Of a stretch of 64,000 bases of DNA, positions 3,409 through 44,290 are shown piece after piece (positions within the stretch are counted from its first letter, which is position 1; every line of letters begins with the position of its first letter). The translations under genes and the position numbers were made by a program. This DNA is from Actinopolyspora mortivallis DSM 44261 (GTDB taxonomy: Bacteria > Actinomycetota > Actinomycetes > Mycobacteriales > Pseudonocardiaceae), in NCBI RefSeq assembly GCF_000384035.1, contig NZ_KB913024.1, forward strand, positions 3,887,021 to 3,951,020. The letters run 5' to 3'. The notes under the pieces were generated by a model. The model ran no database searches and was not told where the DNA came from. It saw only the letters and a program-made list of their open reading frames with translations.

Positions 3409-3481
3409 TGGAGACGAGGGGAATCGAACCCCTAACCCCCGCCTTGCAAAAGCGGTGCTCTGCCGATTGAGCTACGTCCCC
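3409..3481 (-). tRNA. tRNA-Ala (UGC)
   Basis: This is a 73-nt cloverleaf on the minus strand. The acceptor stem GGGGACG pairs with CGTCTCC (one G-T pair), there is a D-arm TAGCTCAATCGGCAGAGC, and the anticodon stem CCGCT/AGCGG encloses the loop TTTGCAA. The anticodon is TGC and the T-arm contains GGTTCGATTCC. The CCA end is not encoded beyond the discriminator A. It pairs with tRNA-Ile 287 nt upstream, as is usual near gyrA in actinobacteria. Confidence 0.95.
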
Positions 3482-3767: not shown

Positions 3768-3841
3768 TGGGCCTAGGAGGACTTGAACCTCCGACCTCTT
3801 CGTTATCAGCAAAGCGCTCTAACCAACTGAGCTATAGGCCC
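3768..3841 (-). tRNA. tRNA-Ile (GAU)
   Basis: This is a 74-nt cloverleaf on the minus strand. The acceptor GGGCCTA pairs with TAGGCCC, the D-arm is TAGCTCAGTTGGTTAGAGC, the anticodon loop carries GAT, and the T-arm has GGTTCAAGTCC. CCA is not encoded. Confidence 0.95.
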
Positions 3842-38980: not shown

Positions 38981-39082
38981 ACCCCTTCGGGGGACACGAC
39001 CGTGGGGCGTGTGTCCCCCGGTACGACACCCGGTCACGTTACGGCGGTCCCGAAAGCCGGAAACGGGTGAGATCATGCGGGT

Positions 39083-39655
39083 GTGGGATCCGACGCGGAC
39101 GTGAAACCGGGAACGCTGCTCGTGGCGGCGCCGACCCTGTACGACGAGAACTTCCGCCGCACCGTGGTGTTCGTCATCCACCACCACGAGGAGGGCACGC
39201 TCGGGGTGGTGCTCAACCGACCGAGCGAGATACCGGTGGCGGACGTGCTGCCCAAGTGGGGGGAGTTCTCCAGCGAACCACGTTCCCTGTTCGTGGGCGG
39301 GCCGGTGGACCAGCGCACCGCCATCTGTCTCGCCACGCTGCACACCGGCGTGGACCCCGAGAGCACGGAGGGAATCGTGGGGGTGGACGGACCGGTGGGG
39401 CTGATCGACCTCGACGGCGACCCGGGGGAGCTGGCCGCGCGCACCCGGGGGCTCCGGTTCTTCGCCGGCTACGCGGGGTGGGGGAAGCAGCAGCTGGAGA
39501 GCGAGATCGACCGGGGCGACTGGCACGTGATCCCCGCCCTTCCCGAGGACGTGATCGCCGCCTCCGCCACCGACCTGTGGGGACGGGTGCTGCGCCGGCA
39601 GGGGCCGCCGCTGGCCTTCCTGGCCACCCACCCCGGTGATGTCCAGCTGAACTGA
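39083..39655 (+). CDS. YqgE/AlgH family protein
   Basis: The 190-residue product belongs to the conserved YqgE/AlgH (DUF179) family. The N-terminus reads VKPGTLLVAAPTLYDENFRR, followed by VVFVIHHHEEGTLGVVLNRP, VGGPVDQRTAICL, and FFAGYAGWGKQQLESEIDRG near the end. The fold is known, but a biochemical role is not settled. GTG at 39083 lies 102 nt after cca with no strong SD. It is convergent with the SdpI-like gene. Confidence 0.92.
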   Translation: MGSDADVKPGTLLVAAPTLYDENFRRTVVFVIHHHEEGTLGVVLNRPSEIPVADVLPKWGEFSSEPRSLFVGGPVDQRTAICLATLHTGVDPESTEGIVGVDGPVGLIDLDGDPGELAARTRGLRFFAGYAGWGKQQLESEIDRGDWHVIPALPEDVIAASATDLWGRVLRRQGPPLAFLATHPGDVQLN

Positions 39656-39689
39656 GGGGCCCCGCTGAGCCGTCCGGGCCGGGGAAGGA

Positions 39690-40217
39690 TCACCGCCCCG
39701 ACGGGGAGGTGGTTCCGGTCGAGGAGGCGGAGTCCCGCGTGCCGAGCGCGGCCGCGCAACCTCCCGCCGCCGAACAGATCCCGGCCGCGGCGCAGCCGCC
39801 ACCCGTGGTGGCGGAACCCTCCGTGGACGCCCCCGCCCCGGCGGCGCACACCGAGCACCCCGAGTCCGCGGGCAGGAGTTCGGCCGCCCGGGCCCCGAGA
39901 ACTCCCCCGGCCAGGATCAGCGCCACCGCGCCGAGAGCTCCGACACCGAGGACCAGCCAGCCCGTCGTGCCCGGTCCCAGGGTCGCCGCGAGCGAACCGG
40001 CGACCACGGCCGCCGCCGCCCCGGCGAGGACGGGGGGCGCGGCCACACGGTTGGCGAGGCGGAAACCGTCCGCACTGCGCAACGCGGCCGGGGTGCGCAC
40101 CCCGACGTAGCGGTTGCGCGGCAGCGTGCCGCGCAGTCCCCGCAGGCCCAGGGTCGCCGCGGCCGCTCCGAGCAGCACCAGGACCGCGCACAGGGTGATC
40201 AGGAATGCGAGCTCCAC
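39690..40217 (-). CDS. SdpI-like membrane protein with Cys-rich tail
   Basis: The 175-residue product has a first membrane helix LAFLITLCAVLVLLGAAAAT, then the SdpI/YhfL-type motif LPRNRYVGVRTPAALRSADG with FRLANRVAAPPVLAGAAAAV as the second helix. A third helix is TGWLVLGVGALGAVALILAG. SdpI proteins give immunity to the SdpC toxin in Bacillus, but short actinobacterial relatives have no proven role. The last 60 residues are unusual: low-complexity Ala/Gly with five cysteines (CSVC, GGC, GIC, GGC). The start is GTG at 40217, with the leuS leader region divergent from it. Confidence 0.75.
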   Translation of the reverse strand: MELAFLITLCAVLVLLGAAAATLGLRGLRGTLPRNRYVGVRTPAALRSADGFRLANRVAAPPVLAGAAAAVVAGSLAATLGPGTTGWLVLGVGALGAVALILAGGVLGARAAELLPADSGCSVCAAGAGASTEGSATTGGGCAAAGICSAAGGCAAALGTRDSASSTGTTSPSGR

Positions 40218-40395
40218 CCCGCCAGACTACGACCTCGTCTTCCGCCGCTGCTCGCGGCGCGACAAGCGGGTGCCCCGGAGCATACCGTCCTTCGCCTCCT
40301 GGAGGCGGCCGGGTGAGACTCCCTGTCCGGGATCTGTGGAGGATGGCGGGTCCGCCGCGGTCATCCCGGTACCACCGGGCGTGCTACCCACCGGT

Positions 40396-40501
40396 TATCC
40401 TGGTGACGTGGCCGACACCCGACTTCTTGCCGTGCCGCGCTGAGACGACAGGTTCCTCGGCGCGGCGACCCCTCATGCCCGGACCGGGATGGGGGGTTTT
40501 T
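40396..40501 (+). promoter_or_regulatory. leuS attenuator (promoter -10, leader, protector hairpin, terminator)
   Basis: A -10 hexamer TATCCT (40396-40401) is followed 6 nt later by a short ORF with two Leu codons. Its last codons form the left arm of an 11-bp stem (40434-40444 with 40456-40466, one T-G pair). Directly after it, 40468-40481 pairs with 40486-40497 (one bulged G), and five T residues (40497-40501) complete a rho-independent terminator 83 nt before leuS. This is the layout of ribosome-mediated attenuation. No T-box sequence was found. I could not identify a convincing antiterminator pairing by eye. Confidence 0.7.
40408..40443 (+). CDS. leucine leader peptide upstream of leuS
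   Basis: This is an 11-codon ORF starting GTG and ending TGA: V-A-D-T-R-L-L-A-V-P-R. Both leucines (40423-40428) use CTT, rare in this GC-rich DNA where CTG and CTC dominate. The start lies 6 nt after a TATCCT -10 element, so the mRNA is probably leaderless. The position of the Leu codons, 5-10 nt before the protector hairpin, suits a ribosome stalling when charged tRNA-Leu is scarce. Confidence 0.65.
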   Translation: MADTRLLAVPR

Positions 40502-40584
40502 GGCTTTCGGGACGGCACACCGGACGGTCGTCGGAGAGTGCGGAGGCGAGTCCGGGCGACGAACTAGGGAAGGAAACGCACACG

Positions 40585-43500
40585 ATGAGTGGCGCGGAAC
40601 GGAACTCTCAGAGCACGGAAGGCACGGGCGCCGACGACACCCCTCCCTTCCGCTACACCGCACGGCTGGCGGGCGAGATCGAGCGGGACTGGCAGCGACG
40701 CTGGGAGGAACTCGGCAGCTACCACGCCGCGAACCCGGTGGGGCCGCTGAGCGGGGAGCACGCCGCCGCCGAGAAACTGTTCGTGCAGGACATGTTCCCC
40801 TACCCCTCGGGGGCCGGGCTGCACGTCGGCCACCCGCTCGGGTTCATCGGCACCGACGTCTACGCGCGCTACCACCGCATGTTGGGGCGCAACGTGCTGC
40901 ACACGATGGGCTTCGACGCCTTCGGGCTGCCCGCCGAGCAGTACGCGATGCAGACCGGCACGCATCCGCGCACCACCACCGAGAACAACATCGAGCGCTA
41001 CCTGACCCAGATCCGGCGTCTCGGGCTGGGCCACGACGAGCGACGCCGGGTGGCCACCACCGACGTCGAGTTCTACAAGTGGACACAGTGGATCTTCCTG
41101 CAGATCTTCCACGCCTGGTACGACACCGAGGCCGACGGGGGACGCGGTCGGGCCCGCCCGATCAGCGAGCTGGAGGAGGAGTTCGCCTCCGGTGCCCGCG
41201 CCACCCCGGACGGCACCCCGTGGAACGAGCTGAGCCGCCAGCAGCAGCGTCGCGTCCTCGACTCCTACCGCCTGGCCTACCTCTCGGAGGCCCCGGTGAA
41301 CTGGTGCCCCGGGCTGGGGACGGTCGTCGCCAACGAGGAGGTCACCTCGGAGGGGCTCAGCGAGCGCGGCAACTTCCCGGTGTTCCGGCGCAACCTCAAG
41401 CAGTGGATGATGCGGATCACCGCCTACGCCGACCGCCTCGTCGACGACCTGGACCGGCTGGAGTGGCCGGAGAAGGTCAAGACGATGCAGCGCAACTGGA
41501 TCGGGCGTTCCCAGGGCGCCGAGATCCGCTTTTCCGTGGTCGGCCGGGACGAGACGATCGAGGTGTTCACCACCCGCCCGGACACCCTGTTCGGCGCCAC
41601 CTACATGGTGCTGGCCCCCGAACACCCGCTGGCCGACGGGATCGTCGCCGATCCGGAGGGTTTCGCCGCCTGGCCGGAGGGCACGGACCCGCGTTGGACC
41701 GGCGGTCACGCCGGGCCCGCCGAGGCCGTGTCCGCCTACCGGCACACCGCCTCGATGAAGTCCGAACTGGAACGGCAGGAGAACAAGGACAAGACCGGTG
41801 TGTTCACCGGGCTGTACGCGGTCAACCCGGTCAACGGGCAGCTGGTGCCCGTCTTCGTGGCCGACTACGTGCTGCTGAGCTACGGAACCGGGGCGATCAT
41901 GGCGGTTCCCGGTCAGGACGAGCGTGACTGGGAGTTCGCCGAGGAGTTCGGCCTGCCCATCGTGCGTACGGTGCGCCCGCCGGAGGACTTCGAGGGCGGG
42001 GCCTACACCGGCGACGGGACCACGATCAACTCCTCCTCCGACGACACGGGACTGAGCCTGGACGGGCTGACCGTGGACGAGGCCAAGAAGAAGGTCGTCT
42101 CCTGGCTGGAGGAGAACGGTCACGGCAGGGGCAGCGTGCAGTACAAGCTGCGGGACTGGCTGTTCGCGCGGCAGCGTTACTGGGGGGAGCCCTTCCCCGT
42201 GGTCTACGACGAGGACGGCACCCCGTTGGGGCTTCCGGAGGACCAACTTCCGGTGGAGCTGCCCGAGGTGGCCGAGTACTCGCCGCGCACCTACGACCCC
42301 AACGACGCGGACAGTCGGCCCGAGCCCCCGCTGTCCAAGGCCGAGCAGTGGGCCGAGGTGGAGCTGGACCTCGGCGACGGCCTCCGGCACTACCACCGCG
42401 ACACCAACGTGATGCCCCAGTGGGCCGGGTCGTGCTGGTACCAGCTGCGTTACATCGACCCGGACAACCACGAGCGGTTCGTGGACCCGGACAACGAGCG
42501 GTACTGGATGGGCCCGCGCCCCGACACCCACGGCGCGAACGACCCGGGCGGGTTGGACCTCTACGTCGGTGGGGTGGAGCACGCGGTGCTGCACCTGCTG
42601 TACGCGCGGTTCTGGCAGAAGGTGCTCTACGACCTGGGGCACGTCTCCGCCGAGGAGCCCTACCGGCGACTGTACAACCAGGGCTACATCCAGGCCTACG
42701 CCTTCACCGACTCGCGCGGCGTCTACGTTCCCGCCGAGGAGGTGGAGGAACACGACGGCAGGTACTTCTACGCCGGTGAGGAGGTCACCCGCGAGTACGG
42801 CAAGATGGGCAAGAGCCTGAAGAACTCCGTGTCCCCGGAGGAGATGGCCGACGCCTACGGGGTGGACACCCTGCGGCTGTACGAGATGTCCATGGGCCCG
42901 TTGGACGCCTCCCGTCCCTGGTCGACCAAGGACGTGATCGGCTCGCACCGGTTCCTCCAGCGGCTGTGGCGCAACGTCGTCGACGAGAACACCGGCCAGG
43001 CCCGGGTGACCGAGGAGGAACCGGACGAGGAGCTGCTGCGTGCGCTGCACAAGACCATAGCCGGGGTGCGTGAGGACTACGACGGTCTCCAGTTCAACAC
43101 CGCGGTGGCCAAGCTCATCGAGCTGAACAACCGGGTGACCAAGGCCTACTCCGGTTCGGTGGGACCGCCGCGTGCGGTGATGGAACCGATGGTGCTGCTG
43201 GTGGCTCCGCTGACCCCGCACCTGGCCGAGGAGCTGTGGTCCCGGCTGGGGCACGAGCAGAGCCTGGTGCACGGGCCGTTCCCGGTGGCCGACGAGAACT
43301 ACCTGGTCGAGGACACGATCGAGTATCCCATCCAGTTCAACGGCAAGGTGCGCTCGAAGATGACCGTCTCGGCCTCCGCCGAGCAGGACGAGCTGCGCGC
43401 GGCGGCACTGGCCGACGGCAGGATCAAGGAGCTGTTGGGCGGTGCGGAGCCGCGCAAGGTGATCGTGGTGCCCAACCGACTGGTCAACGTGGTCGGCTGA
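40585..43500 (+). CDS. leuS: leucyl-tRNA synthetase
   Basis: LeuRS is a class I synthetase that charges tRNA-Leu. The product has 971 residues. The HIGH-type motif is HVGH at 80-83 ([17 protein letters not shown]), the editing domain CP1 lies at roughly 280-480, and the KMSKS-type motif is KMGKS near 740. A C-terminal domain ends [17 protein letters not shown] at 40585 with AAGGAA upstream is chosen; an ORF start at 40489 lies inside the terminator hairpin and cannot be used by full-length translation control. It is likely controlled by the attenuator just upstream. Confidence 0.97.
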
Positions 43501-43792
43501 GCTTTCCGGCGCCGTGGGGCTCTCGAGTTCCGTCGCACGGGGCTCGGGGCCACCCCTCTCGGCTGTCCTCCCGGAGTCCGGGCTGGTCGTCGAACCCTTC
43601 CGGCCTGACGGCTGGTTCCGGCCTCCGTTCGCCGCGGGGCGAGTGGTCCACAGTGGTTTCCGACGGTCCTGACGCGACACTCAACCCCCGTCGGGGCCGT
43701 CGCGTCACCCGGGGTGACACACGGAACCCGAAGGTGTGAACGGCTCCGGCTTCGACGGGGAGCCGTCGCACACCGAAAAGGAGTGGATCGCT

Positions 43793-44290
43793 GTGCGTAC
43801 TCGCGCCACCAGAACGGGAGTGACCGGCCTGCTCGGTAGCGGCCTCGTGGCCGCCGCTCTCGTGGTCGGGGCACCCCTGGCCACGGCCGCTTCCTCCCAG
43901 GAGGAGTCCACGATCCCCGTGGCCTCGGAGGAGGAGAACCACCAGGAGGGCACAGACCAGCCGGAAGGTCTGCACGGCACACCCGGGCAGGACGTGATCA
44001 AGGGGCGCGGTGGCTTCGACGTCATCTTCGGAAAGGGAGGTGACGACAGCCTCTTCGGCAACTCCGGTATGGACGTCATCCGGGGTGAGGAGGGAGACGA
44101 CTTCCTCCACGGTGGGCCGGGTGAGGACTACCTCTACGCCGGTCCCGGCGACGACATCGTGATGTCCGACGAGCTCGGCTCCGACGACGAGGCCGACGTC
44201 ATCGACTGTGGCCCCGGTGTCGACCGGTACAACGCCGACCCCGAGGACGAGGTCAGGAACTGCGAGATCCCCTACGACGGCAGGGGCTGA
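43793..44290 (+). CDS. small secreted RTX-type calcium-binding protein
   Basis: The 165-residue product has a Sec signal peptide (TRATRTGVTGLLGSGLVAAA, then LVVGAPLATAAS), followed by an acidic stretch. Five or six imperfect nonapeptide RTX repeats follow (GRGGFDVIFGKGGDDSLFGN, SGMDVIRGEEGDDFLHGG, PGEDYLYAGPGDDIV), which form a calcium-binding beta-roll in haemolysin-type proteins. The C-terminus has two cysteines (VIDCGPGVDRY, RNCEIPY), typical of actinobacterial single-domain members. There is no toxin or protease domain. GTG at 43793 has AAGGAG 9 nt upstream. The function is unknown. Confidence 0.8.
   Translation: MRTRATRTGVTGLLGSGLVAAALVVGAPLATAASSQEESTIPVASEEENHQEGTDQPEGLHGTPGQDVIKGRGGFDVIFGKGGDDSLFGNSGMDVIRGEEGDDFLHGGPGEDYLYAGPGDDIVMSDELGSDDEADVIDCGPGVDRYNADPEDEVRNCEIPYDGRG

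Follow-up and report, generated by a model that had tools for sequence, protein, structure and literature searches.

A leaderless leucine leader and adjoining terminator before leuS of Actinopolyspora mortivallis: a probable transcription attenuator that looks widely conserved among actinobacteria

Here we present an analysis of the region before leuS in Actinopolyspora mortivallis DSM 44261, carried out within a 64,000-nucleotide stretch of contig NZ_KB913024.1 (positions 3,887,021 to 3,951,020), hereafter the window. The gene product was identified as a leucyl-tRNA synthetase by NCBIfam profile search (TIGR00396, 884.5 bits against a cut-off of 548.4), and its first 172 residues are 93% identical to those of A. 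xinjiangensis LeuS. The nearest upstream open reading frame (39690-40217) is divergent, lying on the minus strand, and has no NCBIfam match, while the last plus-strand gene upstream, of the YqgE/AlgH family, ends at 39655; the hairpin that precedes leuS is therefore unlikely to be the terminator of an upstream transcript. On the 3' side of leuS, positions 43736-44290 encode a small protein with weak, sub-cut-off matches to calcium-binding (RTX-like) repeat families, and two tRNA genes, both on the minus strand, are found at 3409-3481 and 3768-3841 of the window.

The original prediction, made from the letters of this stretch, had placed before leuS a -10 box, a leaderless leader peptide with two rare leucine codons, a stem at the end of its reading frame and a terminator, and every one of these parts was found as described (Table 1). 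The TATCCT box is separated by 6 nt from a GTG that opens 11 codons, V-A-D-T-R-L-L-A-V-P-R, the first residue being read as Met. Stem 1 comprises 11 pairs, one of them G-U, and is followed by a second hairpin (40467-40498) with T residues at 40497-40501, the last of which is 83 nt from the leuS ATG. The description of CTT as rare is correct, since it accounts for 25 of the 1295 Leu codons in the 23 long, high-GC3 open reading frames of the window. We infer that transcription starts at 40408, at or adjoining the GTG.

Table 1. Elements of the leuS leader region, in window coordinates
Feature	Position	Strand	Basis
-10 promoter box TATCCT, without a -35 match	40396..40401	+	read from sequence
Leaderless leader-peptide ORF, GTG at 40408, stop TGA 40441-40443	40408..40443	+	sequence, homologous leaders
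Regulatory codons CTT CTT, the second exactly 5 nt 5' of stem 1	40423..40428	+	sequence
Stem 1, 5' arm, contains the stop codon	40434..40444	+	folds, covarying outer pairs, GCCGCG conservation
Stem 1, 3' arm, adjoins the terminator	40456..40466	+	folds, covariation
Intrinsic terminator hairpin and T5 tract	40467..40501	+	sequence, folds
TG step 10-11 nt past stem 1, speculative hairpin pause site	40476..40477	+	leader statistics
GGCACAC motif 3' of the terminator, candidate second promoter or regulatory site	40514..40520	+	recurrence at leuS loci
leuS, leucyl-tRNA synthetase, regulated gene	40585..43500	+	NCBIfam TIGR00396

The RNA from 40408 to 40510 folds at -53 kcal/mol (z = -3.14), a stability equalled by 2 of 200 shuffles. 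A composite pattern was searched for on both strands: TANNNT, 6-7 nt, an ATG or GTG opening an ORF that spans 6-20 codons and includes Leu-Leu, and then a hairpin with 7 or more pairs and 4 or more T. Its single match in the 64-kb window is at 40408, and 20 shuffles in which letters were mixed inside 50-nt blocks gave no match; the ORF part of the pattern taken alone occurs at a mean of 0.45 per shuffle. A promoter scan of 39000-41500 called no sigma-70 promoter, a -35 match being absent. The terminator scan did not call the hairpin before leuS, probably owing to its interrupted stem, and returned as its sole terminator-like site one elsewhere, on the minus strand.

Leaders of this kind have been reported from Streptomyces. 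For S. avermitilis and S. coelicolor, attenuators of leuS that include antiterminators were predicted in 2005 by Seliverstov et al., the leuS prediction in the accessible text being for Streptomyces only (PMC1262725), and the LeuL2 leader of S. lividans TK24, published in 2021 and having the peptide MRAVRLLLSEPR, is described in the part of the report available to us as leaderless by RNA-seq, with a hairpin and a U stretch, before leuS (PMC8079986). As these leaders were already on record, control of a synthetase gene by such a leader, which the original prediction had thought notable, is not so by itself. The 2005 attenuators, as far as the available text describes them, share with the window a Leu-codon leader ORF and a terminator before leuS; they differ in that an antiterminator hairpin is claimed for the two species, whereas none is conserved in the 140-148 leaders studied here (PMC1262725). 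Judged from its sequence, the window leader would be of the LeuL2 type, with a Leu-run ORF before leuS, leaderless-type -10 spacing, a hairpin with a U stretch and homology over the whole element, although it has two Leu codons rather than three, a GTG start and a longer, interrupted terminator compared with Streptomyces-type leaders. No description of the element in Pseudonocardiaceae was found in the open-access literature searched, and the word "leucine" is absent from the main text, as available, of a 2016 leader paper from the Lyubetsky group (PMC4833913). The kind of element is already known from Streptomyces; what is added here is a wider range than in the literature found, and a sharper geometry. 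A comparative study by Lopatovskaya et al. (2010) reportedly deals with attenuation of aminoacyl-tRNA synthetase operons and may cover more.

To describe that range, we used a covariance model (R1) built from an alignment (A1) of 41 Pseudonocardiaceae-type leuS leaders, the window's included and none from Streptomyces, which had been chosen with a pattern containing CT-codons, CCGCG, CGCGG and CCC. The window leader, itself one of the 41 model sequences, scores E = 8.5e-13. Absence of the leader from close relatives had been named as evidence against the reading of the locus as a leaderless leucine leader peptide with a terminator; the opposite was found, with matches in all 10 Actinopolyspora genomes (the window's own among them) and far beyond, at 57 of the 80 named leuS loci. 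At E <= 0.1 and with strict filters, the model matches in 169 of 394 genomes of the class, from 75 of 138 genera, a count in which some matches are weak or stand before other genes, leuS having been checked for the collected part only. The collected matches number 176, and leuS lies downstream of 156 of these, 152 of them distinct. The S. lividans LeuL2 peptide recurs identically in 10 of the 152 distinct leaders, and leaders with this peptide, none of which is in the model, score 3e-9 to 2e-8 (L116, L124, L126, L128). The leuS leader thus looks like a real and widespread actinobacterial device, not a Streptomyces peculiarity, with a sharply conserved geometry of -10 box, leaderless start, CTT, 5 nt, stem and terminator.

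The 23 named leuS loci without the element belong to Saccharopolyspora (four, L005-L008), Amycolatopsis (two, L058 and L079), Gordonia (ten), Williamsia (two), Lolliginicoccus (two), Hoyosella (one), Speluncibacter (one) and a Mycobacteriaceae MAG (one). Likewise, no model match was obtained in the 20 genomes listed for a different family (f2) within the order, or in 205 further genomes of the 394-genome class sample. In Saccharopolyspora rectivirgula and Saccharopolyspora rosea (L007, L008), the leader is absent and remnants of the terminator hairpin are apparently kept, judged by eye, which suggests that the leader was lost there.

The geometry is best seen in counts over the leaders. All 156 leuS leaders have a TANNNT box 6-8 nt 5' of an ATG or GTG leader start; with the upstream 60 nt shuffled, the count averaged 6.2 and never exceeded 11. 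Because the model used to find the matches contains Leu codons, stem and terminator, the conservation of these parts partly reflects how the matches were selected; the -10 box lies outside the model and is thus independent evidence for leaderless starts. In 144 of the 152 distinct leuS leaders the longest run of Leu codons closes with CTT, and in the other 8 with CTC; the distance from this last codon to the start of stem 1 is 5 nt in 149. When the same distance was read with the stem not parsed, GCCGCG stood there in 143 leaders, a one-base variant in 6 and another sequence in 3. The comparison of leuS upstream regions that had been proposed for the locus shows recurring Leu codons, stem 1 and terminator, and a stop that is either TGA (121 of 152) or TAG (31 of 152).

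Alignment of the 41 model leaders supports stem 1. Pairing is kept in 95.1% of cells and 20 cells are changed on both sides, values reached by no shuffle; of the five measures, one (how many pairs show such a double change) was equalled in 41 of 500 shuffles and the other four in 0-6. It is the outer pairs of stem 1 that covary, and two leaders with altered cores, L170 (GCCACG) and L032 (GCCGCA), carry matching changes in the opposite arm, as seen by eye. A terminator stem is present in all 148 leaders with a parsed stem 1, and in 122 of them at least 4 T occur in the 8 nt that follow it. A CCG[CT]G with a matching opposite arm was a requirement of the parse, and T count entered into its stem score; model and parse thus favour core, stem and terminator, and, with the selection pattern, make the invariant core of the alignments partly a matter of construction. 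In 130 of 148 leaders no more than 1 nt separates stem 1 from the terminator stem; the first TG past stem 1 is found at 10 nt in 82 of the 148, at 11 nt in 25 and nowhere in 21. This adjacency, together with a TG at fixed distance, suggests that stem 1 has a role in termination itself. A TG step 10-11 nt past a hairpin is presumably the geometry of hairpin pauses, and its use as such a pause site here is possible, though speculative.

The best evidence that codons are read comes from matches before other genes, where the codons correspond to the downstream pathway and the architecture stays constant. The model was made solely from leuS leaders, yet 20 of the 176 matches lie where leuS was not confirmed: 8 before cimA, 8 before ilvB, 1 before leuA and 3 others, namely a leuS-like gene at a contig end (L191), a match whose gene is unknown (L203) and one that is probably false (L095). 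Six of the eight cimA assignments (L131, L134, L135, L138, L140, L188, L198, L201) were scanned, with TIGR00977 above cut-off for four near-complete proteins and the best family for two fragments; L140 was assigned from a translated start and L201 from near-identity to L198. Six of the eight ilvB genes were likewise scanned, L143 and L145 being assigned by near-identity to L141 and L144. All eight cimA leaders contain Ile-Ile codons, and five of the eight ilvB leaders read ATT CTC GTA CTT, with related Ile/Leu/Val mixes in the others. An Ile, Leu or Val codon stands exactly 5 nt before the GCGCG of stem 1 in all 16 of these leaders. The leuA leader (L139), MKHLLLIESARH, with codons CTG CTC CTT, a stem and a terminator, does not fit this 5-nt pattern. 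A strict TANNNT box is absent from 16 of the 20 non-leuS matches; boxes with a different first base are seen. No description of an isoleucine leader before cimA was found in the open-access literature searched.

The leuA leader, with its stem and terminator, also departs from the usual description of leaders before leuA, the LEU element. That element (LeuL1) is presented in the available portions of two reports as a pseudoknot in which Leu codons pair with the Shine-Dalgarno site, with no typical terminator (PMC1262725; PMC8079986), and what it shares with the window is that both are leucine-coding leaders of Actinobacteria. A parallel in layout is the Corynebacterium ilvB-II motif, in which a uORF runs across the first hairpin and a terminator follows, and for which, in the text available, reporter data support attenuation (PMC10272879). 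The antiterminator of ilvB-II, as given there, pairs part of the hairpin 1 loop with the terminator 3' arm, a pairing that in the present leaders, Amycolatopsis excepted, is hardly above controls.

Taken together, these results make the leuS leader a probable attenuator of transcription, ribosome-mediated and of the Streptomyces LeuL2 type, of which the start site, the stalling and the effect on termination are the inferred parts. Transcription would begin at or beside the GTG, and a ribosome would load onto the leaderless 5' end and translate the 11 codons. When Leu-tRNA is ample, the ribosome would reach the stop and leave, whereupon stem 1 and the adjoining terminator would form and transcription would end before leuS. 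When charged tRNA for CTT is scarce, the ribosome would stall at CTT. This codon is read by the GAG isoacceptor, which also reads CTC, and its constancy as the sensor suggests that a single leucine isoacceptor is monitored. A ribosome stalled on CTT is expected to have a footprint that reaches across the 5-nt spacer into the first few bases of stem 1. Its front edge would thereby block closing of the stem 1 base, termination would fall and leuS would be made. For the last part of this scheme we favour a stem 1 that may directly aid termination, being adjacent to the terminator, possibly stacked on it and possibly a pause hairpin. The step from an open stem 1 to a loss of termination is the weak one, given that no conserved antiterminator was found.

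The alternative for that step is textbook three-helix attenuation, in which stalling would release the stem 1 3' arm for pairing with the terminator; we regard this as possible, if rather unlikely. In its favour is the pair of antiterminator hairpins given for the S. avermitilis and S. coelicolor leuS attenuators in the accessible text of the 2005 paper (PMC1262725). Six kinds of test on 140-148 leaders found no conserved antiterminator, within the power of the tests, so that the lack of a clear one, already remarked in the original prediction, is apparently a property of the whole class. Folding with parts of the leader masked, as had been suggested, revealed no structure that opens the terminator, which in 148 leaders formed with a probability of about 0.95-0.96 whichever part was masked and of about 0.96 when a ribosome occupied the Leu codon. 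Weak duplexes of the stem 1 3' arm with the 5' arm or loop of the terminator do exist, and their mean of -7.7 kcal/mol could be counted for the three-helix scheme, but against loop shuffles the mean z is +0.41 and z falls below -1 in 3 of 148 leaders. Four-base 2:3 pairing at the terminator base (20 of 148) did not exceed its permuted controls (mean 23.4, maximum 31). When region 1 is fully masked, the leaders whose terminator arm pairs upstream with a probability above 0.3 rise from 10 to 57 of 148, which again favours three helices; the corresponding average, however, is 0.250 for real leaders, 0.257 with swapped loops and 0.318 with shuffled loops. Over all start positions, upstream pairing averages 0.45 and exceeds 0.6 in 29 of 148 leaders, a level close to the 0.46 of E. 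coli leuL, whereas shuffled leaders average 0.60, and in the window leader the terminator 5' arm pairs upstream at no more than 0.16 for any start point.

The E. coli leaders define how far these negatives reach. The maxima of upstream pairing for thrL, leuL, trpL and hisL span 0.46-0.71, and against their own shuffles the values are 0.58 vs 0.33 (thrL), 0.46 vs 0.43 (leuL), 0.71 vs 0.74 (trpL) and 0.58 vs 0.54 (hisL); only thrL clearly beats its shuffles, and the power of the antiterminator negatives is therefore limited. The leader peptide of E. coli leuL, like that of the window, contains Leu codons and is followed by a terminator, but leuL serves a biosynthetic operon, is not known to be leaderless, and shows a rise in terminator-arm upstream pairing from 0.03 to 0.46 on masking. 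Of the marks of a classical trp/leu-type attenuator, the window leader thus has the peptide with cognate codons and the terminator, while an excluding antiterminator was not found, with the limited power just described. Pairing with the 3' arm of the terminator was slightly stronger than controls, both for the stem 1 loop (mean -12.2 kcal/mol vs -11.9 swapped and -11.7 shuffled) and for the leader codon region (-13.6 vs -13.1 swapped), and for the latter reached -16 or lower in 25.7% of cases vs 17.9% swapped and -24 or lower in 4.1% vs 0.4%. With a stalled ribosome in place, a single leader of the 148 showed upstream pairing of the 3' arm above 0.3. The extreme codon-region pairings come nearly all from Amycolatopsis, and this long complementarity is a further point for a three-helix switch; a lineage-specific antiterminator in that genus is possible. 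In four of its leaders (L073, L075, L078, L082), both stem 1 loop and codon region are strongly complementary to the terminator 3' arm, to -30.6 kcal/mol. Covariation over all column pairs of a 140-row alignment offers no antiterminator, the top pairs lying within stem 1 and the terminator only, where the terminator columns were picked by complementarity and their covariation is biased upward. We also considered the resemblance of CTCCTT to the 16S anti-Shine-Dalgarno sequence, an idea that was dropped as Streptomyces-type leaders have CTTCTGCTT.

Other explanations do away with the stalled ribosome, or with its response to charged tRNA. The terminator might be constitutive and the ORF incidental, with leuS driven from a second promoter downstream of the terminator. 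The predicted formation of the terminator under all conditions agrees with this, as does the GGCACAC motif, which is found near the leuS start at 16 of the 80 leuS loci (1 Actinopolyspora, 15 Saccharopolyspora) and is kept in four Saccharopolyspora without a leader. The motif is absent, however, from 45 of the 57 leader-bearing loci (170 nt before to 60 nt after the start of the LeuS match), and an incidental ORF would not retain the -10 box, CTT and the 5-nt spacing across so many leaders, which makes this account improbable. As a candidate recognized from its recurrence, GGCACAC may still be a second promoter and as such a point against exclusive control by the leader. Arrest of the ribosome by a conserved C-terminal Pro-Arg-stop would explain the C-terminal PR shared by 114 of the 152 leader peptides. 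Yet in 28 of the 31 TAG leaders GCCGCG shares only its first base with the stop and, though untranslated, is kept, and the cimA and ilvB leaders end differently. The RNA, not the peptide, is conserved; we consider nascent-peptide arrest very improbable. Least credible of all is a tRNA-binding T-box or another known riboswitch. According to the available text of the 2005 study, synthetase genes of the Firmicutes are mostly under T-box control (PMC1262725), but only about 90 nt separate the inferred start from the T tract. Rfam gives no T-box family match, its only hits at the gathering threshold being the two tRNAs of the window, and nothing to E = 1 in 40300-40640.

We return to attenuation by a ribosome stalled at CTT. 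With no conserved antiterminator found in some 150 leaders, the question arises how such attenuators switch. One answer, which we offer tentatively and hold to be doubtful in this general form, is a modular attenuator that does without an antiterminator. A codon would be set at a 5-nt ruler, the abutting hairpin would boost the terminator, and the stalled ribosome would wedge the hairpin open; the cassette would recur across the class with its codons exchanged to suit the gene, CTT before leuS, a mix of Ile, Leu and Val before ilvB, Ile-Ile before cimA, and perhaps a further version before leuA.

The natural codon swaps, together with natural loss of the terminator, provide a means to answer the question of switching. 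Two Actinopolyspora genomes (L093, L094) have an insertion of about 210 nt exactly at the position of the T tract, which is displaced, and the leuS terminator would thus be dispensable there; like the 23 leuS loci that lack the element and the non-leuS matches with no strict TANNNT box, this counts against the attenuator. The insertion carries the inverted repeat GCCACCTACGC/GCGTAGGTGGC.
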